Shown here piece after piece: positions 440 through 13,346 of a stretch of DNA of 64,000 nt. A model generated the notes under the pieces. It was not told where the DNA came from. It ran no database searches and saw only the letters and a list, made by a program, of their open reading frames with translations. The stretch comes from Acinetobacter sp. TGL-Y2 (GTDB lineage: Bacteria > Pseudomonadota > Gammaproteobacteria > Pseudomonadales > Moraxellaceae). The stretch lies in contig NZ_CP015110.1 of the NCBI RefSeq assembly GCF_001612555.1, forward strand, positions 3,162,001 through 3,226,000, in the 5' to 3' direction. Each line of letters starts with the position of its first letter. Within the stretch, counting starts at the first letter, position 1. The position numbers and the translations under genes were made by a program.

Positions 440-1310
440 CCTAATATTAAGTAACCTGAATCGCGGATAAGAAACTGACTTGAAAAATAAGAGGACTAGA
501 GCCATCAGTTGAGTTACCACACCTAACTCACAACTCTAGTCCCGATGTTTAATAGTACCGAATTATTCTGCGTAATTGATGATTTCTTTCTTAAATTTGA
601 AGCAACGTATTGGAAATTTCTTAAGCAAAGCCGTCGTTTCTCAAGAGTTTGAACAGCTCACTTGAGTATCTCAGAAATCACCTTTATTGCTATCTGGTAT
701 AAATGTTCTCATTTCAACAATTTCAAAGCATTTTTCACATGGTTGAAACACGATAAAAGTCATTTATTTAAAAGCTTACCCTGTTACCAACGAATGATTT
801 ATCTGATCAATATACATCAATTGGCATTACATGCTTTACATGTAGCTTTAACGAAAGGTCAAAGCAGCCAATATTTATGGCTTGATTCAACAACGCTACC
901 AGTCTGTAAAAATCAGCGGATTCAACGCCATAAATCTCTAGCCAAAATTGCATCTCGTGGTAAAAGTTCGATGGGGTGGTTCTATGGCTGTAAATTACAT
1001 ATCGCGATGAATCAATGTGGTGAAATCGCTTGCTCTGCTTTATCTAATGGCATGTGGCTGACATCAAAATGGTTGAGCATTTGGTTAAAGGTATAGAAGC
1101 AAAACTGTACGCAGATCGTGGCTATATCAGTCAGGACTTAAAAAGCAGATTAAAAGATCAAGGTATTGATTTGATTACCTATCATCGAAAGAACATGCGA
1201 TCTGTTCAGCTCAGTGCCCCAGATGAATACCACTTAAAACAGCGCAATCAAATAGAAACGTTATTCAGTTTATTGAAAGGTCAATACAATTTAGTAACAA
1301 GCAAAGCACG
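440..1310 (+). mobile_element. IS982-family element, 3'-truncated remnant
   Basis: The left border of the island is an IS982-type sequence: leader, then a transposase frame starting at 545. It ends abruptly after the codons for SKAR near 1310, where the KAP remnant on the other strand begins, so the last part of the transposase and the right terminal repeat are missing. The exact left tip of the IS is not certain; it could begin at 440 or nearer 455. Confidence 0.7.
545..1310 (+). pseudogene. IS982-family transposase, degenerate
   Basis: The frame opens at ATG 545 (MFNSTELFCVIDDF). It hits an in-frame TGA at 650-652, resumes through the block LWLDSTTLPVCKNQRIQRHK, and shifts frame near 1050 (one base missing in the codons for NGHVAD). 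It continues to LFSLLKGQYNLVTSKAR and is then truncated. The DSTxLPVC motif, the RGKSSMGWFYGCKLH block and the LYADRGY block are typical of IS982 transposases. With a stop, a frameshift and a lost C-terminus the protein cannot be functional. Confidence 0.82.
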
Positions 1311-2138
1311 TATACAGGCAACTGAATAAGTTTATCTAGGTAGTCGGTTATATGCCTTTCATCGATTCCGTTAAAATGATCTTTAACAGCAAATCTCACC
1401 ATTTCTTCGTCAGCGGCTATAACAAACGCTATATTCTTCATAAATAGAAATAGTCTTAATGATTCCAGTGTCTCAATTGTCTGTTTTGGAAGACATCGAT
1501 CTGAATTATCAACAAAAACAATAACTTTTTTGTTTAAAGATTCCAATAAATCCTCAAATTCATTTTTTAATGCTGTAATCTCTTTTGGTGCTGAACTTTT
1601 TTCCTCGTTAAGAATATCTTTTAAGCTTTCTTTCCCTTTATTAATAGCTTCAGTAACGTGTTGTGCATCTTCTTCCCCAGCACTACCATTGATTCCATTG
1701 CCAATAGAGTCAAGCTTTTGAAAGTAGACCAAATGTGAGAACACCAAAAGCTAAAGCAGTACCTTCAGCTACCCAACCTAGAGCTCTCAATTTATTGATT
1801 CTTTTTCCTATGCTTAATGCTTTTTCGTATAATTTTTCGTCTTGCTTTACTAATTTAGAAATTTCAGTATTAATAACTTCTAATAGTGACGCTTTAGCAT
1901 CATCAAAACCCTGATACAACTAAGCATCAAATCTAATAATTATATAATCATCATTGTTTTCCATATGTTCAAGATTTTTTTCAATTAGATTTAAGATCGT
2001 AGATTTACCAGTTCCCCATGACCCAAATACGCCTATTGAAATAGACAACATCTGAGGATTCTGAAGCACATTGATAATAATTTCTGATGCTTCAGAATAG
2101 TTTAAAAAATCTATCTTTGATTCTACATCGGACCACAT
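1311..2138 (-). pseudogene. KAP-family P-loop NTPase, degenerate and truncated
   Basis: Reading leftwards from ATG 2138 (MWSDVESK), a Walker A motif GSWGTGKST is followed by a frame that should read FDAWLYQGFDDAKASLLEVI, but the Trp codon is TAG near 1920. The second piece (to about 1740) has hydrophobic residues of the membrane insertion typical of KAP ATPases (GALA-type helix), then shifts frame. The third piece carries the Walker B-like VIVFVDNSDRC and IAFVIAADEEMV. It is cut at 1311 by the IS982 remnant. KAP proteins are membrane-associated NTPases, some linked to phage exclusion; here only a relic remains. Confidence 0.78.
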
Positions 2139-2248
2139 AAAAACCACCGAAAAATTTATATTTTTTAGAAATTTACTTTGTTTTTTTGAATTTTAGATAC
2201 TATCGATTATCCATTTAATGAAATTTAGATGTATCTGATTTGTGACTA

Positions 2249-2470
2249 GTAGCCCTCTTGCGAAAGTAAAAACTACCTCCATATAAATGTCATGAGATAT
2301 CAGAATTAAACCTTTTTTCAGATTCTGAATTCAAACGCCTGGTTGGCGTACCTCGACAGGTCTTTACTGAAATGCTAGATGTTTTAGTAAAACCAGAATC
2401 ACTCAAAAAGAAATCAGGTCGTCCTCATACTTTAGATTTAGAGGATCAATTGTTATTAACACTCAACTAC
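2249..2470 (+). mobile_element. IS5-family fragment (5' part), interrupted by the next IS
   Basis: Conceptual translation near 2300-2470 gives FSDSEFKRLVGVPRQVFTEM and GRPHTLDLEDQLLLTLNY, the N-terminal helix-turn-helix part of an IS5-type transposase different from the 914-bp copies. One base is missing just after its probable start (atgagatatcag). The frame is cut at 2470 by the 914-bp element, which inserted at a TA dinucleotide, so this is an older relic. The left boundary is approximate. Confidence 0.65.
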
Positions 2471-2472
2471 TA

Positions 2473-3386
2473 GATCTCTTTCATAAATCAAAAAGTGACC
2501 ATTCTTTTGGTCAATATTTGCACTCCGGATTTCTTGGCATTGGTGCATAATCTACGGATGAAATACATCGATTCAAAAAAGCTTTCTGATTCTCAGTTCA
2601 AGCGATATACAGGCATCTCATGGTCAACCTTCTATTCAATGGTTGAGCAATTGAAAATGAATATCCCTGCCAAGGGCAGACCACCCAAGTTAAGCTTGGA
2701 AGATCAGGTTCTGCTCTGTCTGAGTTATTGGCGGGAATACCGAACTTTATTTCACGTTGCGACGAGTTATGGGGTTTCAGAGCCGACAGCTTCAAGAATT
2801 GTGCGTCATGTTGAAGAATGCCTGATTCAGTCTAAATTGTTTAATTTACCCAAAGCTTTACCCGAAGGCGGAGGCATTGACTGGAATGTTGTGATCGTGG
2901 ATGCCACAAAAATTCCAATACAAAGACCCAAAAAAACAGAAGAAAAGCTATAGCGGTAAGAAAAAGACGCACACCTATAAAGTACAGGCCATAATTCACT
3001 ATAAAACTCAGCAAATTCTGAGTTTGTGTAGCAGTCGCAGTACAGTACATGATTTCGAGCTATTCAAACGAAATTTAAAGCAGATACCTTTAGGGGCTTT
3101 CATCCTTGCAGATAAAGGCTATCAAGGGATTTATACTGTGTATTCTAATAGCCTGTTGCCGTTCAAAGCCAAAAGGCGCTGTAAACTGGATCCTGAACTC
3201 AAACGTTATAATCGTGAAATCAATAAAAGAAGAATCGGAATTGAGCCTGTATTCGGCAGTTTAAAAAAGTTTAAGATTCTTTCGGAACGTTATCGAAACC
3301 GAGGCAAAAGATTGGGCTTGAGATTCAATTTAATTGCTGGAATTTATAACTTTGAGCTGAGTAAAAAATGATTTATGAAAGAAGTC
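2473..3386 (+). mobile_element. IS5-family element copy 1 (914 bp)
   Basis: Terminal inverted repeats GATCTCTTTCATAAATCA and (reverse of) GATTTATGAAAGAAGTC bound a 914-bp unit flanked on both sides by TA. Two further units of exactly the same length lie at 10,478-11,391 and 23,550-24,463. The three differ at many positions, so they are not recent copies of one another. TA flanks, two overlapping frames and length fit the IS427-like part of the IS5 family. Confidence 0.88.
2558..3371 (+). CDS. IS5-family transposase, ORFA plus ORFB by +1 frameshift
   Basis: ORFA (2558-2953, 131 aa) carries the helix-turn-helix region and the first catalytic Asp (VVIVDATKI). ORFB (from about 2901 to 3371) carries the second Asp (ILADKGYQG) and the Glu region (RRIGIEPVFGSLKKF). 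They overlap in the +1 frame at an A-rich tract, CCCAAAAAAACAG near 2930, and the protein is complete only if ribosomes shift there. The same arrangement recurs in all three copies, so it looks native. This copy has Lys where the others have Glu in ATEI, and Pro instead of His after GIE, so its activity is uncertain. Confidence 0.82.
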
Positions 3387-3598: not shown

Positions 3599-4098
3599 AT
3601 GAAATTAACTAAAAAAGATTTCATCTATGATTTTTTACTATCCTATTGGCATCGTAGTCAGTCTGTGGCGCGTGTACGTTTGGGTGAGCAAAATTTAGCC
3701 CTAAATAAAGAAAATTCCATTTTTGGAAGCGCTAGCTTTATTTTAAAATCGCAAAACAACAAGACCTACACAGTCTTATAGATCAAATGAAAAAGGAAAA
3801 GCGAACTGAGAGTAATAAGATTCGTTTCTTGATCGTGAGCGACTTTAAAATACTTTTAGCAATCGATACAAAAACACAAGATACAGTGGATGTTCCATTT
3901 AATGATTTGGCCAAGAAATTCAATTTTTTTTACCTTGGGCTGGTATTGAAAAAGCAGTTTACCAAGGTGAAAACCCTGCTGACGTTAAAGTTGCTGAAAA
4001 ATTAGCAGAACTCTTTGATGAAATTAAAACTGATAATTTTGATGAAGATGCACTGAATAATAATGCAAGCTCGTGCTTATGAAGCTCGTAATTCTTAG
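3599..4098 (+). pseudogene. MmeI-like DNA methyltransferase/restriction enzyme, N-terminal remnant
   Basis: The pieces translate as MKLTKKDFIYDFLLSY, then VPFNDLAKKFNFF, then LPWAGIEKAVYQGENPADVK and AEKLAELFDEIKTDNFDED in successive frames. This is the pattern I recall for the N-terminal domain of MmeI-type class I methylases (type IIL restriction-modification). At least three lesions are visible: a TAG after YTVL at 3779, a frame change in the T-run near 3925, and a small deletion near 4072. The catalytic methylase domain is absent; helicase sequence begins near 4098. Family assignment is from memory and moderately sure. Confidence 0.6.
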
Positions 4099-4530
4099 TA
4101 TCTATTCCTTAAAGCTCCACCTGCTTCATGTAAGTCTCGTACTTTAATATTTTTGGCACTTGATAAACCGCACAATCAATACATTTAAAAAGTCATTATT
4201 GCTGTGCCTCAGCGTTCAATTGGTGGTTCATTTACGAGTACAAAACTCACAGAAAATGGTTTCTTTACGGATTGGGGTATTAAGCCTGAAAATAATTTAT
4301 GTACTGTGGGTGGTGATAAAAGCAACGTAAAAGCAGTTAAACATTTTATGGATAGTTCTGATCAAATCTTAATGTGTACTCATGCAACATTAAGATTTGC
4401 TTTTGAAGAGCTAGAAGATATTGTATTTGATAATACCTTAGTTGCAATTGATGAATTCCATCATGTATCAGCAGATGCTGATACTATTTTGGGTACTGTC
4501 GTCATTTCCAAAGAACTGTGTGAAAAATTT
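4099..4530 (+). pseudogene. DExH-box helicase fragment
   Basis: The readable part gives a damaged P-loop (LKAPPASCKSRTLIFLALD, expected GKS replaced by CKS), an in-frame TAA near 4193, then VIIAVPQRSIGGSF, ILMCTHATLRFAF and the DEFH box (LVAIDEFHHVS) of a superfamily 2 helicase. The frame runs out at 4540 into the TetR gene on the other strand, so motifs III-VI are missing. Placed next to a methylase remnant it may derive from one dismantled restriction or defence locus, but the two pieces need not have belonged together. Confidence 0.65.
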
Positions 4531-4531
4531 A

Positions 4532-5104
4532 CTAGCCTCTGATATTTTCCTGGTTTATAAAATCATAAACTCTTAATACTGAATATAGTGAATTTTGAGC
4601 AATACATTCATCATACCCAAAAACCACAAATCTATTAATAAGTCCCTCTAATATATTAAAAATAATATTAGTCAAAAATCGACTCTCCTTGATTTCGAGT
4701 AGATTTCCATTAATAAAATGTTCCAACCAAAATTTATGTTGCATCGCAATGTTTACAGCTTCTTGGTTTTCTTGGGGCATATCTACAGCAATCTTAACAA
4801 ACATACATCCATGATAATCAGTAGATTTAAACCAATTAAAATGCCATTGGAATAAGCTTGTTATTTTACCTCTCACAGATTGGTCACCGTTGGCAACGAA
4901 TTCGGTCAAAGAAGATCTGAAGCGATCATCACGCTTTTTTAAAACCTCAGTGATTAAGCACTGTTTGGATTTAAAATGAGTGTACATAGTCGTTTTGGAT
5001 GAGCCAGATATGTCACGGATCAAATCAACACCAACAGCTGTATAGCCATGCTCATTGAATAACTTCTCTGCGACGTCCAATATTTTCTCAGAAGATCTAG
5101 TCAT
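4532..5104 (-). CDS. TetR/AcrR-family transcriptional regulator
   Basis: 190 aa. The N-terminal 60 residues form a TetR-type DNA-binding domain (ILDVAEKLFNEHGYTAVGVD, then SGSSKTTMYTHFKSK); the rest is a helical ligand domain with Cys at CMFVKIA. It is divergent from the HPP-family gene with 75 bp between the starts, and that gap contains an inverted repeat TACAG-AC-CTGTA at 5112-5123. The simplest reading is local repression of the divergent cluster and of itself, relieved by a small molecule handled by the cluster. The ligand cannot be read from the sequence. Confidence 0.9.
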   Translation of the reverse strand: MTRSSEKILDVAEKLFNEHGYTAVGVDLIRDISGSSKTTMYTHFKSKQCLITEVLKKRDDRFRSSLTEFVANGDQSVRGKITSLFQWHFNWFKSTDYHGCMFVKIAVDMPQENQEAVNIAMQHKFWLEHFINGNLLEIKESRFLTNIIFNILEGLINRFVVFGYDECIAQNSLYSVLRVYDFINQENIRG

Positions 5105-5111
5105 AAAACAA

Positions 5112-5125
5112 TACAGACCTGTACA
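5112..5125. promoter_or_regulatory. Candidate TetR operator, site 1
   Basis: TACAGACCTGTACA contains the perfect inverted repeat TACAG-AC-CTGTA. It lies 8 bases upstream of the tetR start and 55 bases upstream of the HPP gene, where a TetR protein would cover both promoters. Site 2 at 5730-5743 matches it at 13 of 14 positions. Confidence 0.6.
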
Positions 5126-5179
5126 ATTATTAAAAGTTATGTCTATTATATACTCTCACATCCAAAGGAGGGTGAATTT

Positions 5180-5710
5180 GTGAAAAGATTACTTGTCGGA
5201 AATGAAAATTTAGCTCCAAAACCACCTAAAAATGAAGTTTTGAAAGGTTTAGTCGGTGGAACACTTGGAATAATGATACTGCTCTTATTGTCAGAATATT
5301 CTCAACATGTTTGGATTATGGCTCCATTTGGCGCTACATGCGTTTTATTATTTGCAGCGTCAGCATCGCCGCTAGCACAACCTAGAAACGTAATTTTTGG
5401 TCATCTAATTACAGCATTTGTTGGAATACTATTTTTAAAATTATTTATTATCAATATTTTAACGATATCTTTAGCGGTTGGATTAGGCATCGCCTTAATG
5501 CAACTAGGTAGAGCAATTCACCCCCCAGCTGGCGCTAATCCTTTAGTAATTCTATTAACAGCGAGTACCGTACATTACGGATGGCACTTTCTGATTACAC
5601 CAGTATTAGTAGGTTCAATTTCATTGGTTCTTGTAGCTGTATTAGTAAATTATATTTTTGATGGAAAAAAATGGCCCAATTATTGGCTCGCTGTAATAAA
5701 AACGAAATAA
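5180..5710 (+). CDS. HPP-family integral membrane protein
   Basis: 176 aa, starting at GTG 5180 behind a strong ribosome site (AAAGGAGGG at 5164-5172). It has about four or five hydrophobic segments and the family signature HPPAGANP (about residue 114) plus APFGATCVLLFA. HPP proteins (PF04982) are small membrane proteins; plant members carry nitrite, while bacterial roles are mostly unproven. It is the first gene downstream of the TetR operator and probably the transporter or sensor component of the cluster. Substrate is not inferable. Confidence 0.85.
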   Translation: MKRLLVGNENLAPKPPKNEVLKGLVGGTLGIMILLLLSEYSQHVWIMAPFGATCVLLFAASASPLAQPRNVIFGHLITAFVGILFLKLFIINILTISLAVGLGIALMQLGRAIHPPAGANPLVILLTASTVHYGWHFLITPVLVGSISLVLVAVLVNYIFDGKKWPNYWLAVIKTK

Positions 5711-5729
5711 AAACAGAGCAAACTAAATG

Positions 5730-5743
5730 TACAGACTTGTACA
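5730..5743. promoter_or_regulatory. Candidate TetR operator, site 2
   Basis: TACAGACTTGTACA, within the larger symmetric TGTACA-GACT-TGTACA at 5728-5743, repeats the tetR-promoter motif (site 1 at 5112). It lies between the HPP gene and the tautomerase gene, 10 bases before ATG 5754, suggesting a second regulated promoter or an internal repressor roadblock. It also argues that the upstream ATG at 5727, which would lie inside the operator, is not the start. Confidence 0.55.
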
Positions 5744-5753
5744 GAAAAGAAAA

Positions 5754-6146
5754 ATGCCTCTTATAGCGATATCAAGAAACAAAAAGGGCTTAGCTCATTT
5801 AGATGAGCAAGCCCTTTCAAAAGAACTGATCACGGTCACACATAAAAGCTTATCAAAAAGCCTTAATCAGACCGTCATTAACTTTCTAAATTTAGATTCT
5901 TGTCATGGCAATAACGGCGCTATCGATGCGTCATATCTAAGTGTTGACATTAAAATCACCAAAAATACGAATTCTGAATCGGAGAAAGGCGATTGGATTA
6001 AGTGTGTCTGGGAAATATTAAGAAAATATATTCCAAATATTGAAAAGAACATCAATTACATCTCTATCACTGAAGTAGAGAGTAATGCATGGGGTTACAA
6101 CGGCTTAACACAATTAAAAAGAGCAACAACTGGAGATAAAAAATGA
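5754..6146 (+). CDS. Tautomerase-superfamily protein (MSAD/CaaD-like size)
   Basis: 130 aa from ATG 5754. The mature protein would start PLIAIS, placing a proline at position 1 as required in the 4-oxalocrotonate tautomerase superfamily. Length and the C-terminal ITEVESNAWGYNG block resemble the fused two-unit members such as malonate semialdehyde decarboxylase rather than the 60-residue 4-OT. I chose 5754 over the in-frame ATG at 5727 because only the later start exposes Pro1 and it leaves the operator outside the gene. It lies 8 bases before the cupin gene; probably co-transcribed. Reaction unknown. Confidence 0.7.
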   Translation: MPLIAISRNKKGLAHLDEQALSKELITVTHKSLSKSLNQTVINFLNLDSCHGNNGAIDASYLSVDIKITKNTNSESEKGDWIKCVWEILRKYIPNIEKNINYISITEVESNAWGYNGLTQLKRATTGDKK

Positions 6147-6153
6147 ATTTTCC

Positions 6154-6540
6154 ATGCCCACCACAGACAATGACACAACAATAGATTTCAATTTTGGTCG
6201 TGATATTCCTGTTCCTGAAGATTTTGAGTTTGAACCGTATCAATTGGGCATACGTGAAGGTGTCGATATTTGCGTTCTATTTTCAGAAAACGTGGGTGAT
6301 AAGACAGGGGCAGATCTTGCATTTTTAAAATATCAGCCCGGTGCCTATGTACCTGGCCATGTACACATTGGTTATGAAACTGTTTTGGTTTTACAAGGTC
6401 AATATATAGAAAACGGAGTTGAATATCGTCCCGGATCTTTTATTGTTCGAGCGCCCGGTACATGTCATAGCATGGCATCACAAGAAGGCTGTCTAATTCT
6501 TGCTTCTCGTTATAAACCAGTACAACAACTGCCAAACTAA
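6154..6540 (+). CDS. Cupin-domain protein (ChrR-like)
   Basis: 128 aa single-domain cupin. The metal-binding pattern is visible as GHVHIGYETVLVLQG followed, after ENGVEYRPGSF, by PGTCHS: two His, one Glu and a later His. Such small cupins are dioxygenases, acetylacetone-cleaving enzymes or anti-sigma-type sensors; the sequence does not decide. It sits 7 bases after the tautomerase and 7 bases before the CoA-transferase start, so translation is probably coupled. In this setting an enzyme acting on an organic acid seems more likely than a regulator. Confidence 0.8.
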   Translation: MPTTDNDTTIDFNFGRDIPVPEDFEFEPYQLGIREGVDICVLFSENVGDKTGADLAFLKYQPGAYVPGHVHIGYETVLVLQGQYIENGVEYRPGSFIVRAPGTCHSMASQEGCLILASRYKPVQQLPN

Positions 6541-6547
6541 GCGAATT

Positions 6548-7938
6548 ATGAAAATAATATCAAAAGAACACTTCGTTAAATTAGTGCAGCCTGAATCCAC
6601 ATTATTGATTGGTGGGTTTGGCTGTTGCGGTTCACCAGATTTTCTTTTAAGAGCCATCAAAGAATCATATTTGCAATTCGATACACCTCATTCTTTGAAC
6701 CTTATGTTTATTTCTGCAGTAGGTGATAAAGATCTAAAGGGTATTAACTACATTGCTATTGAGGGATTAATCAAATCTACGGTAGGTGGGTTCTATGGAT
6801 TTTGTCCAAGACTTTCAACTCTTATTGATAAGAAGTTGATAGAAGCACACAACTGGCCCCTTGGTATATTTCCTCGTTATTTTTCAGAAATTAGCTATGG
6901 ATCTAATGGATTAAATTCGAGAGTAGGTTTGGGAAGCTTTGTTGATCCCAACCTTTCAGGCGGTGTAATCAATAACACAGCTGAATCATTGCTTAAAGCT
7001 GTAATGATCAATAACGAAGAACATATTCACTACCCAAAACTAGATGTTGATTTCTTTATATTTCGTGCAAGCGAGGCAGACGTAGAAGGAAACATATCTA
7101 TGTCTAAAGAGTCGGCTAGTTTTACCAGTATGGAGCAAATTCTTGCGACAAAACGATTGGGTGGAAAGGTTGTTGTTGAAGTCGCAAAGATTTCAGAAAA
7201 AGCCTCAGTTCAAGATGTAAGTATTCCTTCAGGATTAATTGATTACATCATCGTAAACAACGAAGAAATTACATATCCAACCTATGGGCATAGTGATGAT
7301 CTTAATAAGTTAAATATTCCCATAAGTGAAAACCGTCTTGATATAGCTCGTACAGCCTATGAAGTATTTGATCAGAGTGGATCGACAGTTAATTTTGGTA
7401 TTGGCATCTCGGCATTAATACCAAGAGTCGCTAAATTCGGTGAATCACATATTAGTGTTGAATCAGGACTTATTAGTGGACTTCCATTAGAAGGTCTTTC
7501 ATTCGGGCATGTAGAAAATCCTCTTATAGAACTATCTCAACTGAACTTGTTCTCAATGTATGAAGCACAAGGAATTGATACGACATTTCTTGGTTTTGTA
7601 GAAATTGACAAACAAGGTCGTGTAAACGCGAGTCGTATTGGTAATTCATGGACTGGGATAGGTGGCTTTTTGAATATTGCATATTCAGCAAAAGTCATCG
7701 TTTTTTGCGGAATTTTAGGGACCCGTAAAAGTTCGTAGATAAAGTAAATGAAATAACTATGGACTTAAACCATGAAATATTTTCAAAGAAAGAAATATAT
7801 CTCGCTTGTGAAATAGGTACCTTTGTATATGCAAACGGCAGATTCAAGCCGTTAAATATCAAAGATGAAAAGCTACTTCAAGAACATAACAATTTTTTTA
7901 ACCTAAATATTAATAATTACGAATTAAAGGTCAATTGA
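6548..7938 (+). pseudogene. Family I CoA-transferase (YdiF/propionate CoA-transferase-like), frameshifted
   Basis: From ATG 6548 the frame shows the N-terminal half with a glycine-rich loop (LIGGFGCCGSPDF), and the C-terminal half with VNFGIGISALIP and VESGLISGLPLEG, the region of the catalytic Glu of class I CoA-transferases. The frame stops at 7736-7738, but the expected continuation FVDKVNEITMDL is present one frame over from about 7727 and runs to the TGA at 7936-7938, 1 base before the next ATG. One base added or lost in the short A-run near 7727 explains this. Repaired length is about 463 aa, a little short for the family. Either a recent mutation or a sequencing error. Confidence 0.75.
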
Positions 7939-7939
7939 A

Positions 7940-9448
7940 ATGAAAAAAGTAATTAATGACATTATCGTAGTAGGTGCAGGGGCATCAAGTTTAAGTTTTT
8001 TACATTCCCTTGTTAATAAGGTAAAACCAAATGAACATTTCAACATAATTGTTATAGATAAAGACCGTGATTATGGTTGTGGCAATGCATATAAAGATGA
8101 TGTATCGACAAATTTATTAAATACAAAAGCTGGTTATATCACGATTGATAAAGAACAAAAGGGCGATTTTTTTAACTGGCTAAAAAAAAATGAAAGTAAT
8201 TGGCGATCTGAATTTTCTGACTTAGAGATTACCGTAGATTCATATTTACCAAGACCATTATTTGGCGCATACATGCGTGATAAGTTTGATACGTTGATCA
8301 AAGATTCTCTTGCAAAAAATGTCAGAATCTCAACGGTTAAAGGTGAAGTCGTAAATGTACAAAAGATCTCTAACCTTAAATATACAACCCATCTATCTTG
8401 TGGTTTAAAACTTGAATCAAATGTCGTGATATTAGCGACAGGTACGAGTTTTTTAACCAAAGATGTATGTAAGCTCAATGATAATATTTTCAATTCGCCG
8501 TATCCGCTGAAGAAACGTATTGGTCAGATTGATCAAAATGATTCAGTACTAATTATCGGTGCAAGGTTAAGTGCTATTGATACGATTGTGGCCCTTAAAG
8601 ATAATGGTCATAAAGGCAAAATTACGGTTCACTCAAGAAGCAGTACTTTCCCTTGTGTCCGTGGTACACAGGATAGATATTTGAACCAATTTTTGAATAT
8701 TAATTACATTGAACAGAACAATATCAAAATCAACATTGAAAACCTAAAGGCATTATTCGATAAGGAAATGGCGAATTACCTTAAAGAAAACTCAAATGTT
8801 GAATTAGCCAATGAATCATTTGCAATTAAAAATTGTGTAGTAGGCAGCTTCAAGGAATATTTGCTGAATGAATTAGAGATGGCATCTAAACCACGACCAT
8901 GGCAAGCAATCCTATACGATACGAATTTAATTTTGAGTTATATCTGGAATTTACTTGCAGATGATGAACGTAAGTTATTTATGAAATCACATCTAAGCCA
9001 TGCAATGGCTATGCGTGTATCTATTCCAGAACTCAATGCAAGAAAGCTTGTTAATTACATTGATGAAGGAAACCTAGAATTTATCTCTGGTAGTTGTGTA
9101 GTAGAAACATCAGCTGCGAATGAAATCAAATGTACACTCAATGGAAATGAACAGGTATACGATAAAGTAATTTATGCAACAGGATCTCCAAGAGATTTAA
9201 CACATTCAGATTCAATTTTATTTAGAAACTTGAATGATAGTGAAATCATAGGGAATAATGAATACGGTGGAATTTCTGTATGCAAAAATACATTCCAGGT
9301 CCTTACTAATAACGGACACGTTAATGAAGGATTATTTGCTTTAGGCGAAATCACCAATGGCACACATTTATTCAATAGCGCATTAGACATCATTGTTAGC
9401 CATAGTTCGAAATGTAGTGAATTAGTACTTAGTAAAATTAGTGCTTAG
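7940..9448 (+). CDS. FAD/NAD(P)-binding oxidoreductase (NAD_binding_9 type)
   Basis: 502 aa. An N-terminal Rossmann motif (IIVVGAGASS, residues 8-17) binds FAD; a second nucleotide-binding site follows near residue 203 (VLIIGARLSAIDT); an ATGS turn appears near residue 413 (YATGSPRDL), and the C-terminal part ends LGEITNGTHLFNSALD. The pattern fits YdhS/HydR-like flavoproteins (PF13454) that act on unidentified substrates or tailor small molecules. The start overlaps the ribosome region immediately after the CoA-transferase stop, so it belongs to the same transcript. Chemistry of the reaction is not readable here. Confidence 0.8.
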   Translation: MKKVINDIIVVGAGASSLSFLHSLVNKVKPNEHFNIIVIDKDRDYGCGNAYKDDVSTNLLNTKAGYITIDKEQKGDFFNWLKKNESNWRSEFSDLEITVDSYLPRPLFGAYMRDKFDTLIKDSLAKNVRISTVKGEVVNVQKISNLKYTTHLSCGLKLESNVVILATGTSFLTKDVCKLNDNIFNSPYPLKKRIGQIDQNDSVLIIGARLSAIDTIVALKDNGHKGKITVHSRSSTFPCVRGTQDRYLNQFLNINYIEQNNIKINIENLKALFDKEMANYLKENSNVELANESFAIKNCVVGSFKEYLLNELEMASKPRPWQAILYDTNLILSYIWNLLADDERKLFMKSHLSHAMAMRVSIPELNARKLVNYIDEGNLEFISGSCVVETSAANEIKCTLNGNEQVYDKVIYATGSPRDLTHSDSILFRNLNDSEIIGNNEYGGISVCKNTFQVLTNNGHVNEGLFALGEITNGTHLFNSALDIIVSHSSKCSELVLSKISA

Positions 9449-9458
9449 TCATACATAG

Positions 9459-10199
9459 ATGGAAGATTGGCTAAACTTAATTATTGTTTTTTTGGGAAGC
9501 TCTTTGGCTTGTTTTGTACAAAGATATGTTGGCTTTGCTTATGGTCTAATTTCCCTAACAATCTGGATTAGCTTTATAGAAATTCATACAGCTATATTGC
9601 TATCCTTGGTTGGAGCGTTCTTAGGTCAATGTGTAAATTTCAAAAACAATAGAAACATGGAAATTAAATCAGCCAGATTTTTCTTACTGGGTGGCATTCT
9701 TGGAATGCTGCTTAGTTTTTATTTTCTCTCTGATATAGATCTAACGGATGTAAAAACTGGCTTGGGGACTTTAATGGTTCTTTTCTTTCTACTAAATATT
9801 TTTTTATATAGAACCTATCTAAAGTATAAAGAGAATAAATTTGCCGAATTATTAGTGGGTAGTATCGGTGGAGGAATGGGTATATTAGGTGCAGGTTTTG
9901 GAATGGTTCCTTCTGTATGGTGTACTCTCAATAATTACAGTAAAGAGTCATATTTCAGTATAATGATTTTTTTCAATATGATAATTATTTTTTTATCTTC
10001 TCTATTTCATTTAAGCCATTTTCAGATTGAAATAAACTATTTATATTTCGCAGTACTAATCTTCTCCATCTATACCTCCAATTTATTGTTCAAACATAAA
10101 AAATTTAGAATTAATTTCTCCACTGTTCGAGTAGTGGTTAATTTTATTGTCCTTTTACAAGGTTTAATTCTAATTTATCACAGTCTTATAGTTAATTAG
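9459..10199 (+). CDS. TauE/SafE-family (sulfite exporter type) membrane protein
   Basis: 246 aa, strongly hydrophobic with about eight predicted membrane spans. Two internal half-repeats are suggested by the phrases LVGAFLGQ near residue 50 and GGGMGILGAGFG near residue 137, as in TauE/SafE/YfcA proteins (PF01925) that export sulfite, sulfonates or other organic anions. It starts 10 bases after the FAD protein and is the last gene of the cluster. It suggests that the pathway releases or excludes an anion, possibly sulfur-containing. Confidence 0.82.
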   Translation: MEDWLNLIIVFLGSSLACFVQRYVGFAYGLISLTIWISFIEIHTAILLSLVGAFLGQCVNFKNNRNMEIKSARFFLLGGILGMLLSFYFLSDIDLTDVKTGLGTLMVLFFLLNIFLYRTYLKYKENKFAELLVGSIGGGMGILGAGFGMVPSVWCTLNNYSKESYFSIMIFFNMIIIFLSSLFHLSHFQIEINYLYFAVLIFSIYTSNLLFKHKKFRINFSTVRVVVNFIVLLQGLILIYHSLIVN

Positions 10200-10316: not shown

Positions 10317-10477
10317 ATACCAATAGTGCTTTGAGGTATCAGGAATATATTAAGAATTTATTTTCGAATAAATTTTATATTTTATTAATGGTTTTCTGGT
10401 TAGGTTTTAAAACAGGAATTCTAGTTTTATAACGTATTTATTTTAGGAGGATATTGACCAAATTATAATATATATTA

Positions 10478-11391
10478 GACCTCTTTCATAAATCAAAAAA
10501 CAACCATCCTTTTGATTAATATTTGTACTCCAAATTTTTAAGCATTCGTGCATAATCTGCGGATGAAATCCATCGATTCGAAGAAGCTTTCTGATCCTCA
10601 GTTCAAGCGATATACAGGCATCTCATGGTCAACCTTCTATTTAATAGTTGAGCAATTGAAAATGCACGTCCCTACCAAAGGCAGACCGCCCAATTTAAAC
10701 CTAGAAGATCAAGTTCTGCTTTGCTTAAGTTATTGGCGGGAATACCGAACTTTGTTTCACGTTGCGACGAGTTACGGAGTTTCAGAGCTGACAGCTTCAA
10801 GAATTGCACGTCATATTGAAGACTGCCTGACTCAGTCTAAGCTGTTTAATTTACCCAAAGATTTATCCGAAGGCGAAGATATTGACTGGAATGTTGTGAT
10901 CATGGATGCCACAGAAATTCCAATACAAAGGCCCAAAAAAACAGAAGAAAAGCTATAGCGGTAAGAAAAAGACGCACACCCTTAAAGTACAGGCGATAAT
11001 TCACTATAAAACTCAGCAAATTCTGAGTTTATGTAGCAGTCGTGGTGCAGTGGATGATTTAGAGCTACTCAAACGAAATTTAAATCAGATAACTTTGGGG
11101 GCTTTTATCCTTGCAAATAAAGGCCAACAGGGGATTTACAATGTATCTGCTCATAGTCTGTTGCCTTTAAAAGCGAAGAAAGGATGTAAATTAGATCCTG
11201 AACTCAAATGCTATAATCGTGAAATTAATAGAAGAAGAATCGGAATTGAGCATGTATTCGGCTGTTTAAAAAAATTCAAGATCTTTTCGGAACGTTATCG
11301 AAACCGAGGCAAAAGACTCGGTTTGAGATTCAATTTAATTGCTAGAATTTACAACATTGAATTGAGCAAAAAATGATTTATGAAAGAGCTC
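10478..11391 (+). mobile_element. IS5-family element copy 2 (914 bp)
   Basis: Same length and end sequences as copy 1 (GACCTCTTTCATAAATCA and its inverted partner), flanked by TA at 10,476-10,477 and 11,392-11,393. It marks the right side of the metabolic cargo, in the same orientation as copy 1, so the two could delimit or have reshuffled the cargo by recombination. After it, 11,394-11,682 is AT-rich and shows no gene. Confidence 0.87.
10563..11376 (+). CDS. IS5-family transposase copy 2, probably inactive
   Basis: ORFA 10,563-10,958 (131 aa) and ORFB about 10,906-11,376 share the +1 overlap over CCCAAAAAAACAG found in copy 1. The second catalytic Asp is lost: where the others have ILADKGYQG this copy has ILANKGQQG. 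It also differs at several otherwise conserved residues (MDATEI, RIARHIED). The DDE triad is therefore incomplete and the protein is unlikely to transpose, although both frames are open. Confidence 0.78.
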
Positions 11392-11682
11392 TAATATAGT
11401 TTAATTGATGAAAGATAAAGATTTCTTTGATGCGCAATAGTTATATTTTTTAAATCATGTTTAGTTTCAAGAAAGTGTTCGATTTCTATTTTTTTATTTT
11501 GAAAAATAATGATTGATATTTTCTAATTGCATCATACTTTCTCATACTTCTAGTTACATTAAGAATTCCCATATTATAATATCTATACTTTATCAAAATT
11601 TAAAGTTATCAAAAATAATATTAATATTTTGATATATATGATTAAATATTGATTTTTATTTTATTGGTATTAGGGAAACTTG

Positions 11683-11757: not shown

Positions 11758-12186
11758 TTAATTGTATTTTAATAAAAACATATGCAAGACAGCTTCATGA
11801 TTTGCTTTTTTCTTCGAAAAGCTTAAAGTTTTCCGTGTAAAACGTCCCAAGCGATTTCTTAATGTGGCATTAAACCGCTCAACATGGTTCGTTAAACCTG
11901 TATGTTTACCTACAGAGCGATGGGTACTAGGATCAAACACCTCAGCATAACTTGGCCAATAATCACTACATGTTGCTAAATTAAAGTAGGCTGTGGGAAT
12001 ACGGCAACGTAAATCTGTACACGTTTTATCATTGCGCCGACCACATACATAAGCGATGACCTGACGTGTACGACGGCATAGTGCAATCCAACTCCAAACC
12101 TTATGACGACGAGCTTTTACAAAGCTCCACAGTTCATCCAGTTCTAGAACATCTGTTGGATGAGCATCAAGTAATTCGTCACTCAA
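11758..12186 (-). CDS. insB: IS1 transposase catalytic part (InsB)
   Basis: 142 aa with the IS1 DDE residues in context: ELDELWSF (first Asp), CSDYWPSYAEV (second Asp), and NHVERFNATLRNRLGRFTRK (Glu). It overlaps insA by 8 bases in another frame; IS1 elements make the active InsAB' protein by -1 frameshifting, and an A-run (GAAAAAAG) lies before the overlap. Both frames are intact, so the element may be active. Confidence 0.9.
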   Translation of the reverse strand: MSDELLDAHPTDVLELDELWSFVKARRHKVWSWIALCRRTRQVIAYVCGRRNDKTCTDLRCRIPTAYFNLATCSDYWPSYAEVFDPSTHRSVGKHTGLTNHVERFNATLRNRLGRFTRKTLSFSKKKANHEAVLHMFLLKYN

Positions 12187-12460
12187 TTTCCTGTTGTTTA
12201 CTTTTTTCTATCCATCCCATGAGCGTTTGAGGTGCAACACCAAATAGACGCTGCATGCCTCTTAAACTGCCTCGTTCAAGATAAGTATTGATGATGAGTT
12301 CTTTTTGCTCTTCGGTATATTTGATTTTAGGTTTGAGCACACTTGATCGACCGCAATCTTTACATCTGAACTGCGCATTCCCGCTTTTATTATGCCCATT
12401 CTTATAAATATTTGCTGATTGGCAACGAGTACATAAGTAGCTTATCGTTTCTATGATCAT
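12179..12460 (-). CDS. insA: IS1 InsA DNA-binding protein
   Basis: 93 aa with an N-terminal zinc finger (CTRCQSANIYKNGHN, then QFRCKDCGRSS) and a helix-turn-helix (RGSLRGMQRLFGVAPQTLMGW). It binds the IS1 ends, represses the element when made alone, and is the N-terminal half of the transposase after frameshifting. Confidence 0.92.
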   Translation of the reverse strand: MIIETISYLCTRCQSANIYKNGHNKSGNAQFRCKDCGRSSVLKPKIKYTEEQKELIINTYLERGSLRGMQRLFGVAPQTLMGWIEKSKQQEIE

Positions 12461-12530: not shown

Positions 12531-13346
12531 GTTGCACGTATGGCCTCTGGAGGGAGATTTGGTACAGCACAGTCGGCCTTCTAAGTCGGAGGGAATAGTG
12601 GTTCTGCTATCGGGCCATTATTAGCGGCCGCCATTATCGTACCCAATGGTCAAGCATCTGCAGCATGGTTCATGGTGGTCGCCATCTTCGCTATTTTCGT
12701 CTTATTCAAAATTAGTCGCTGGACTGTGAGTTTTGCACTTTCTTCCCAAGGAAAACCCATTCAAATGACTCAAGCAAAACTGAGTAAATCAACTTTGACT
12801 CGTGCTTTGGTCATTATCTGCTTTTTGATGTTTGCTAAATTCACTTATATTTCAAGTATAAGTAATTATTATATTTTCTATTTAATTGATAAGTTTCATA
12901 TCTCTATTCAACAAGCTCAACTGTATTTATTTGCATTTTTAGCTGCCGTTGCTTTTGGTACTTTTGTAGGGGGTCCTGTTGGAGACAAAATAGGACGTAA
13001 AGCAGTCATTTGGATTTCATTTCTGGGCATGGCTCCTTTTGCTTTGTTGATGCCTTATGCCAATTTATTCTGGACCTGTGTCTTTGCGATTTTAGCTGGG
13101 TTGATCATGTCATCTGCTTTTGCTGCCATGGTGGTTTATGCGCAAGAAGCAGTGCCAGGACGAGTGGGCATGATTTCTGGATTAATGTTCGGTTTAATGT
13201 TTGGCGTCAGTGGTATTGCGGCAGCAGCATTAGGCTCCGCTGCTGATCATCAGAGAATTGCATGGGTCTTTAGTTTTGCTTCATACTTACCCTTACTTGG
13301 GGTTTTGACCATGTTGTTACCAAATCTACGCACACACAAAAATTAA
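12531..13346 (+). pseudogene. fsr: fsr-like MFS transporter, 3' piece
   Basis: After the right IS1 duplication the frame resumes as R-MASGGRFGTAQSAF, meets a TAA at 12,582-12,584 where Fsr proteins have Gln (CAA to TAA), and continues VGGNSGSAIGPLLAA through the C-terminal six-helix half to the stop at 13,346. An ATG at 12,672 could begin a 224-residue C-terminal half protein, but half an MFS transporter is not expected to work. The extra stop shows the gene has decayed beyond the two insertions. Confidence 0.88.

Follow-up and report, generated by a model that had tools for sequence, protein, structure and literature searches.

A rare TetR-controlled gene set of Acinetobacter sp. TGL-Y2 that recurs in distant bacteria, with a tentative role in N-oxygenation

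Our study concerns a 64,000-nucleotide stretch of the genome of Acinetobacter sp. TGL-Y2 (contig NZ_CP015110.1, positions 3,162,001 to 3,226,000), hereafter the window, and in it a cluster of genes for a TetR-family regulator, an HPP-family membrane protein, a tautomerase, a cupin, a class I coenzyme A (CoA)-transferase, a flavoprotein and a TauE/SafE-family permease (Table 1). The first six of these genes are a rare, uncharacterised metabolic gene set whose order is repeated in distantly related bacteria, and it is well supported that they constitute a conserved, self-regulated and mobile operon. Our tentative proposal, to which we give somewhat less than even chances, is that the operon oxygenates the nitrogen of a small amino acid with the help of CoA, and that the product would be exported by HPP and sensed by TetR. 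An earlier note, made from the sequence alone, had named the seven families, all of which are present: Pfam recognises six of them, and the tautomerase is identified by its predicted model, a Foldseek search and a Met-Pro amino terminus. The same note knew of no described system with this combination, and we likewise found no named or described system matching the cluster in the open-licence literature.

Recurrence, operator and state of the operon

Scanning genomes with an alignment of the flavoprotein yielded 28 loci. The order HPP-tautomerase-cupin-CoA-transferase-flavoprotein behind a divergent TetR gene is present in 14 of them, in hosts that include Pseudoalteromonas, Alteromonas, Aeromonas, Halomonas, Pseudomonas, Marinobacter and Xenorhabdus (Pseudoalteromonas aurantia being locus L007); TetR relatives stand beside HPP in this arrangement at 14 of the 28 loci. 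This repetition of order and strand in different genera puts the gene arrangement beyond chance. The remaining loci are less complete or rearranged: L023 has all six genes in another order, L018 and L020 have all but a recognisable tautomerase, L022 has four of the six on a short contig, L025, L026 and L028 keep only cupin, CoA-transferase and flavoprotein, L016 has two of the six, and the flavoprotein is alone in six loci (L012, L017, L024 and L032-L034). A Thioclava plasmid also carries all six genes, with TetR co-directional instead of divergent. The recurrence of the seven families in order, on which the earlier note had staked its reading, thus holds for six genes, in the 14 loci and the Thioclava plasmid; TauE was seen in none of these 14, in no other of the 28 loci and not on the Thioclava plasmid. 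It lies outside the conserved unit, and we rejected it as a core member of the pathway. Contigs of size 6410 and 40019 appear in both the flavoprotein and the tautomerase lists, which suggests shared contigs.

The flavoprotein is rare. Protein collections gave four close relatives (71-90% identity, full length). Among 175 genomes of the genus, two had a match at E<=1e-10, TGL-Y2 itself and one at 23% identity; a looser search found it in 3 of 119 genus genomes, and in the class it was present in 2 of 369 genomes at E<=1e-60, TGL-Y2 included. Viral contigs held no flavoprotein relative, and the DNA of the Aeromonas cluster was not matched in E. coli genomes.

The 3,691,287-base (3.69 Mb) genome matches TACAGAYCTGTA at a single place, the gap between the TetR and HPP genes, and the reversed control had no match. 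TetR-HPP regions carry the strict motif in 29/29 Acinetobacter chromosomal pairs, 5/10 plasmid pairs and 6/15 clusters, and its relaxed core ACAGRYCTGT in 14 of the 15 clusters (the exception is L031), inside or at the edge of the called gap; the motif was absent from L018 and L020. It is important to consider that the motif was picked after inspecting the same sequences, and that mononucleotide shuffles over the 601,013 scanned bases gave 0.05 strict and 2.05 relaxed matches, so the relaxed sites are weaker evidence. It is well supported, as far as sequence can tell, that TetR and HPP share one putative operator and hence form a self-regulated unit, in line with what the earlier note had supposed.

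Special attention was given to the CoA-transferase, whose break the earlier note had missed. Its open frame encodes 396 amino acids up to the stop at 7738, and intact relatives have 486-489. In tblastn searches with four intact relatives, residues up to 394-399 matched in one frame and those from 416-420 in another, the DNA being nearly contiguous; this alignment gap together with the frame change indicates that both conserved residues and frame have been lost. As judged from these alignments, about 12-20 residues are gone and the 3' end is out of frame. Compared with the columns conserved in at least 90% of 24 CoA-transferases, the window protein has 18 positions substituted and 6 missing. 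The pattern suggests decay rather than a single misread base, with an assembly fault as a possible alternative. The PF01144 domain and the motif E305-S-G, whose E305 we take to be the catalytic Glu of class I CoA-transferases, are present in a chain too short for the complete enzyme. The protein resembles YdiF (2ahu, E 2e-54) and FadX (NCBIfam model E 1.6e-41, but scoring 142.5 bits where the FadX cut-off is 750), and differs from both in being truncated. No common pathway emerged from the gene neighbourhoods of related CoA-transferases in Rhizobium, Sulfitobacter and Paracoccus.

With the CoA-transferase broken, the operon copy in TGL-Y2 is probably not fully working. We consider it an even question whether this copy is a decaying passenger of insertion sequences (IS) without present function, whatever its relatives do: the conserved positions lost from the CoA-transferase, a truncated helicase-like gene upstream and IS copies on both sides point that way, against which the other frames are open, their family-invariant residues are kept and the operator is intact.

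The two oxidases and the proposed chemistry

The predicted model of the flavoprotein aligns with 8cp5 over 479 of 502 residues at 3.5 Å and appears to share the fold of FzmM and CreE, two dinucleotide-binding domains with a large inserted helical domain. FzmM and CreE are aspartate N-hydroxylases (nitrosuccinate synthases) that convert L-aspartate to nitrosuccinate. Asn61 of the flavoprotein, invariant in 41 sequences, is aligned with Asn62 of FzmM over the flavin; identity over the structure alignment is about 19%, and Trp51 of FzmM is Tyr51 here. Unlike in the FzmM/CreE setting, a nitrosuccinate-lyase gene was not seen in the conserved unit. A class V aminotransferase gene, closest to alanine-glyoxylate aminotransferase (1vjo, 3.6e-102), follows the flavoprotein gene in 6 of the 28 loci.

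A second architecture, which we call type B, was seen in two clusters. On a Nostoc plasmid (L048), reached through the window cupin, genes for an iron-containing oxidase (PF14518), a tautomerase, a cupin, an AMP-binding ligase, TetR and HPP lie on one strand; the cupin is 54.5% identical to the window cupin over the match and the tautomerase is related to that of the window (hhalign 99.9%, 1.7e-34). In the gammaproteobacterium L086 the genes are HPP, the oxidase split over two frames, a ligase, a class II aldolase, tautomerase, cupin and TetR. At both loci, matches to the flavoprotein and the CoA-transferase were absent, and the natural reading is that in type B the oxidase and the CoA-activating enzyme have been replaced by unrelated families doing the same job. 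The Nostoc oxidase matches 3bjd (2.4e-10), 8w1q (2.8e-10), HrmI (2.4e-9), BesC (1.1e-6) and CADD-type proteins (from 1.7e-4). HrmI is a haem-oxygenase-like diiron oxidase (HDO) reported to convert the side-chain amine of lysine to a nitro group (PMC13108848), and SznF, another N-oxygenase of this kind, is reported to fuse such a diiron domain to an iron cupin in which His407, His409 and His448 are needed (PMC11705231). The present systems differ in that the window has a flavoprotein, and in that the type-B oxidase and cupin are separate genes accompanied by CoA activation and a tautomerase. Distant oxidase relatives (35-36%) lie near a nitronate monooxygenase gene in L154 and, in L155 (6472-8858), adjoin class II aminoacyl-tRNA-synthetase-like, PNPOx-like and glutathione S-transferase genes.

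At the core of our proposal is the amine oxygenation that flavoproteins like FzmM have in common with oxidases like HrmI. In this proposal, a horizontally acquired operon would use O2 and NADPH to oxidise a small acid resembling an amino acid, most probably at nitrogen. TetR would repress HPP and the enzyme genes from the one operator until released by the product or a by-product. The carboxylate would be converted to a CoA thioester by the class I CoA-transferase, or by the acyl-CoA ligase in type B; these enzyme classes are those found, and their substrate is presumed. The flavoprotein, or in type B the diiron oxidase, may then take the amine through a hydroxylamine to a nitroso, oxime or nitro group, as its closest structures do suggest; the Pro1 tautomerase could interconvert nitroso and oxime or nitro and nitronate forms, the cupin, probably iron-bound, might catalyse the next cleavage or rearrangement, and HPP would export a small anion, either nitrite or a nitro/nitronate acid.

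If true, common Gram-negative bacteria would have a compact N-oxygenation pathway that moves horizontally and in which two steps have been non-orthologously replaced; this would also give a function to the TetR-HPP pair carried by many Acinetobacter and link the bacterial HPP family, which is poorly understood, to the export of nitrogen-oxide or nitro anions. Should N-oxygenation be wrong, there would still be a conserved operon to explain, uncharacterised and with an operator of its own.

Several observations weigh against N-oxygenation. First, Arg13 of the aspartate site of FzmM, the only one of its residues Arg13, Arg276, Asn413, Arg416 and Arg577 that the alignment placed, is Ser16 in the flavoprotein. 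Second, FzmM may be the sole solved relative, in which case its rank may say little on substrate. Third, the two best PDB matches of the Nostoc oxidase, 3bjd and 8w1q, are structures whose function is not established here, and NCBIfam places the oxidase, below cut-off, nearest CADD and BesC, neither of them nitro-forming. Fourth, the operator motif is absent from both type-B clusters. Finally, two results on TetR-HPP pairs elsewhere point the same way: tcuA/tcuB-like tricarballylate genes adjoin 17 of 29 Acinetobacter pairs, which suits a carboxylate role (one example each was typed as tcuA-like and tcuB-like by NCBIfam), and nitronate monooxygenase genes were found at 0/29 of these loci (within about 1.5 kb) and 0/29 other HPP loci.

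The tricarballylate neighbours also speak for organic-acid catabolism through a CoA thioester, the pathway favoured by the earlier note and one that we consider unlikely. In such a pathway HPP/TauE would take up or export, the acid would be activated with CoA, a flavoprotein of the Baeyer-Villiger or hydroxylase type would oxidise it, a cupin dioxygenase would cleave the ring or chain, and with the tautomerase the products would feed central metabolism. The closeness of the CoA-transferase to YdiF and FadX, the ligase variant in type B and the class II aldolase of L086 fit such a route, as do the class B flavoproteins, such as cyclohexanone monooxygenase, that are also among the fold matches of the model (rank 49). 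Against it, the conserved unit has no dedicated uptake system and no thiolase/dehydrogenase chain, the fold matches of the predicted flavoprotein favour N-hydroxylases over carbon-oxidising enzymes, and in two clusters a diiron N-oxygenase-like enzyme stands in place of the flavoprotein. N-oxygenation is favoured over plain organic-acid catabolism because of the FzmM-like flavoprotein, its exchange for a HrmI/BesC-type oxidase and the membership of HPP in a nitrite-transport family. The same note had suggested a halogenated or sulfur-containing compound; the recurring genes include no dehalogenase or sulfonate-processing gene, and this substrate was rejected.

Other settings of the flavoprotein deserve mention. 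Its relatives in L012, L033, L034 and L036 (Photobacterium, Leisingera) adjoin ATP-grasp ligase genes, and L012 also has genes for a major facilitator superfamily (MFS) transporter, a thiamine diphosphate enzyme and an amine oxidase; these loci look like another amino-acid natural-product cluster. The relatives G326 and G126 stand in yet other gene settings.

Tautomerase, cupin and the TetR-HPP pair outside the cluster

The tautomerase had no Pfam match at E<=1 and only a sub-threshold NCBIfam match (E 0.0015). Its AlphaFold model (pLDDT, the predicted local distance difference test score, 89.7) retrieved tautomerase-superfamily structures in Foldseek with a best E of 1.2e-7, consistent with the beta-alpha-beta fold. 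The start at 5754, instead of the first-listed open reading frame start at 5727, gives a Met-Pro terminus that is shared by the window protein and 19 relatives; we take this Pro1 to be the catalytic residue of the superfamily. In these same sequences P2, K35, W113, G114, Q120 and R123 are invariant. Used singly as queries of the PDB, neither the tautomerase nor the flavoprotein sequence gave a match. The tautomerase family is broad (33/398 phylum genomes at E<=1e-12) and was rejected as a pathway marker, since in 29/29 other loci examined from a sample of the phylum no queried cluster gene lay within 1.5 kb.

The cupin has a metal-type motif, HxH(x3)E...H, in which H69, H71 and H105 are invariant and E75 nearly so among 16 sequences; a histidine triad like that of SznF is common in cupins. 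It shares PF12973 with ChrR-like cupins, whose structure 3o14 is matched by the family profile (E 2e-11), and differs from them in that the cluster cupins are single-domain proteins in an enzyme operon, not fused to an anti-sigma part. A cupin lyase of the dimethylsulfoniopropionate type was dropped, the match reaching only E 0.032.

HPP genes are common, with matches in 108/369 class genomes and 164/173 genus genomes, where the weaker matches are a longer paralogue. We fetched the 29 best-scoring loci of the 164 genomes (L092-L120), and all 29 have a TetR-HPP pair with the same motif and without the pathway enzymes. A 222-amino-acid protein without NCBIfam match is common to 12 of them, and a transporter that we presume to be of the EamA family occurs in seven. 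Given the tricarballylate neighbours and the breadth of the tautomerase family, neither partner identifies the substrate. A nitronate monooxygenase gene lies beside TetR-HPP in L045, and Pseudoalteromonas THAF3 has one about 6.5 kb from HPP; with none at the 29 Acinetobacter loci or the 29 other HPP loci fetched, the enzyme was rejected as a general partner. The HPP protein AtNITR2;1 is reported to transport nitrite (PMC4137279); the likeness of the window protein to it and its cyanobacterial relatives is the shared Pfam family PF04982 only.

The lone pairs can be read in two ways. In the first, a stress or detoxification system, TetR would sense a nitrogen oxide or a small, reactive acid, which would be removed by HPP and destroyed by the enzymes. 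The enzyme-free pairs with their common operator, the nitronate monooxygenase beside the pair of L045, glutathione S-transferase genes near HPP (L037, L088) and near the cluster (L035), and an HPP gene of Desulfovibrio whose expression is reported to rise under nitric oxide speak for it; six genes with CoA activation would be an elaborate route to destroy a toxicant, and the rarity of the enzyme set in the class does not fit, so that we regard it as rather improbable. In L088 (4676-7118), HPP overlaps the glutathione S-transferase gene, behind a PNPOx/NAD-binding fusion protein. In the second, an extension of N-oxygenation that is possible and that we advance with doubt, the operon would be a new mobile pathway for a diffusible N-oxidised metabolite (nitro, oxime or nitrite-releasing) in two interchangeable forms, flavoprotein with CoA-transferase or diiron oxidase with CoA ligase, which share tautomerase, cupin and the HPP exporter. 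TetR-HPP under its single dedicated operator would then be an immunity pair that has spread alone in Acinetobacter, as resistance genes spread beyond antibiotic producers.

Layout and island setting

Table 1. Features of the cluster and its flanking insertion sequences (positions in the window)
Feature	Position	Strand	Evidence or remark
TetR-family regulator	4532..5104	-	PF00440 (TetR_N) E 2e-11; divergent from operon
Putative TetR operator TACAGACCTGTA	5112..5123	.	match to TACAGAYCTGTA in TetR-HPP gap
HPP-family membrane protein, presumed small anion transporter	5180..5710	+	PF04982 (TM_HPP) E 2.5e-49
Tautomerase-superfamily protein, 130 amino acids, starts Met-Pro	5754..6146	+	predicted model, Foldseek
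ChrR-like single-domain cupin	6154..6540	+	PF12973 (Cupin_7) E 1.4e-12
Class I CoA-transferase (YdiF/FadX-like), 3' end broken	6548..7738	+	PF01144 (CoA_trans) E 1.8e-14
CoA-transferase C-terminus remnant, other reading frame	7729..7938	+	tblastn, four intact relatives, E 1.2e-5 to 0.01
FAD/NAD(P)H flavoprotein, FzmM-like fold (predicted)	7940..9448	+	PF13454 (NAD_binding_9) E 1.3e-27
TauE/SafE-family permease, lineage-specific addition	9459..10199	+	PF01925 E 6.8e-15
Left IS copy, transposase in two frames	2468..3371	+	PF13613
Right IS copy, terminal inverted repeats	10466..11403	+	PF13613; same orientation as left copy

With the tautomerase start at 5754, the intergenic gaps are 75 (divergent TetR/HPP), 43, 7, 7, 201 and 10 bases, the 201 bases running from the CoA-transferase stop to the flavoprotein start; the range of 1-43 bases given earlier is wrong for the open frames. 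Placement on the cargo segment of an island was borne out, the cluster being bounded by the two IS copies, and its G+C content is 34.0% against 40.2% for the window. The 5' 300 bases of the copies (left copy against 10473-10772) are only 87% identical, so the segment appears not to be a recently formed composite transposon; the right copy has a 30-nucleotide inverted repeat (90%).

A helicase-like fragment (4000-4542) just upstream ends at the TetR gene and the cluster edge, and over 100 bases its DNA is a 90% match to DEAD/DEAH helicase genes on plasmids of Proteus, Providencia and Morganella. No close DNA relative on plasmids reached 80% coverage, and some plasmid matches were to a helicase fragment only. 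Fragments of a KAP-family P-loop NTPase (1265-2147, minus strand; one piece PF07693, E 1.4e-24) adjoin DDE transposase pieces, and IS1-family transposase genes (11758-12460, the first PF03400) lie between the right IS copy and an MFS-transporter piece. This C-terminal-like piece (12672-13346) and an N-terminal-like one at 46-444 enclose the whole island, and the two may be one gene split by insertion.

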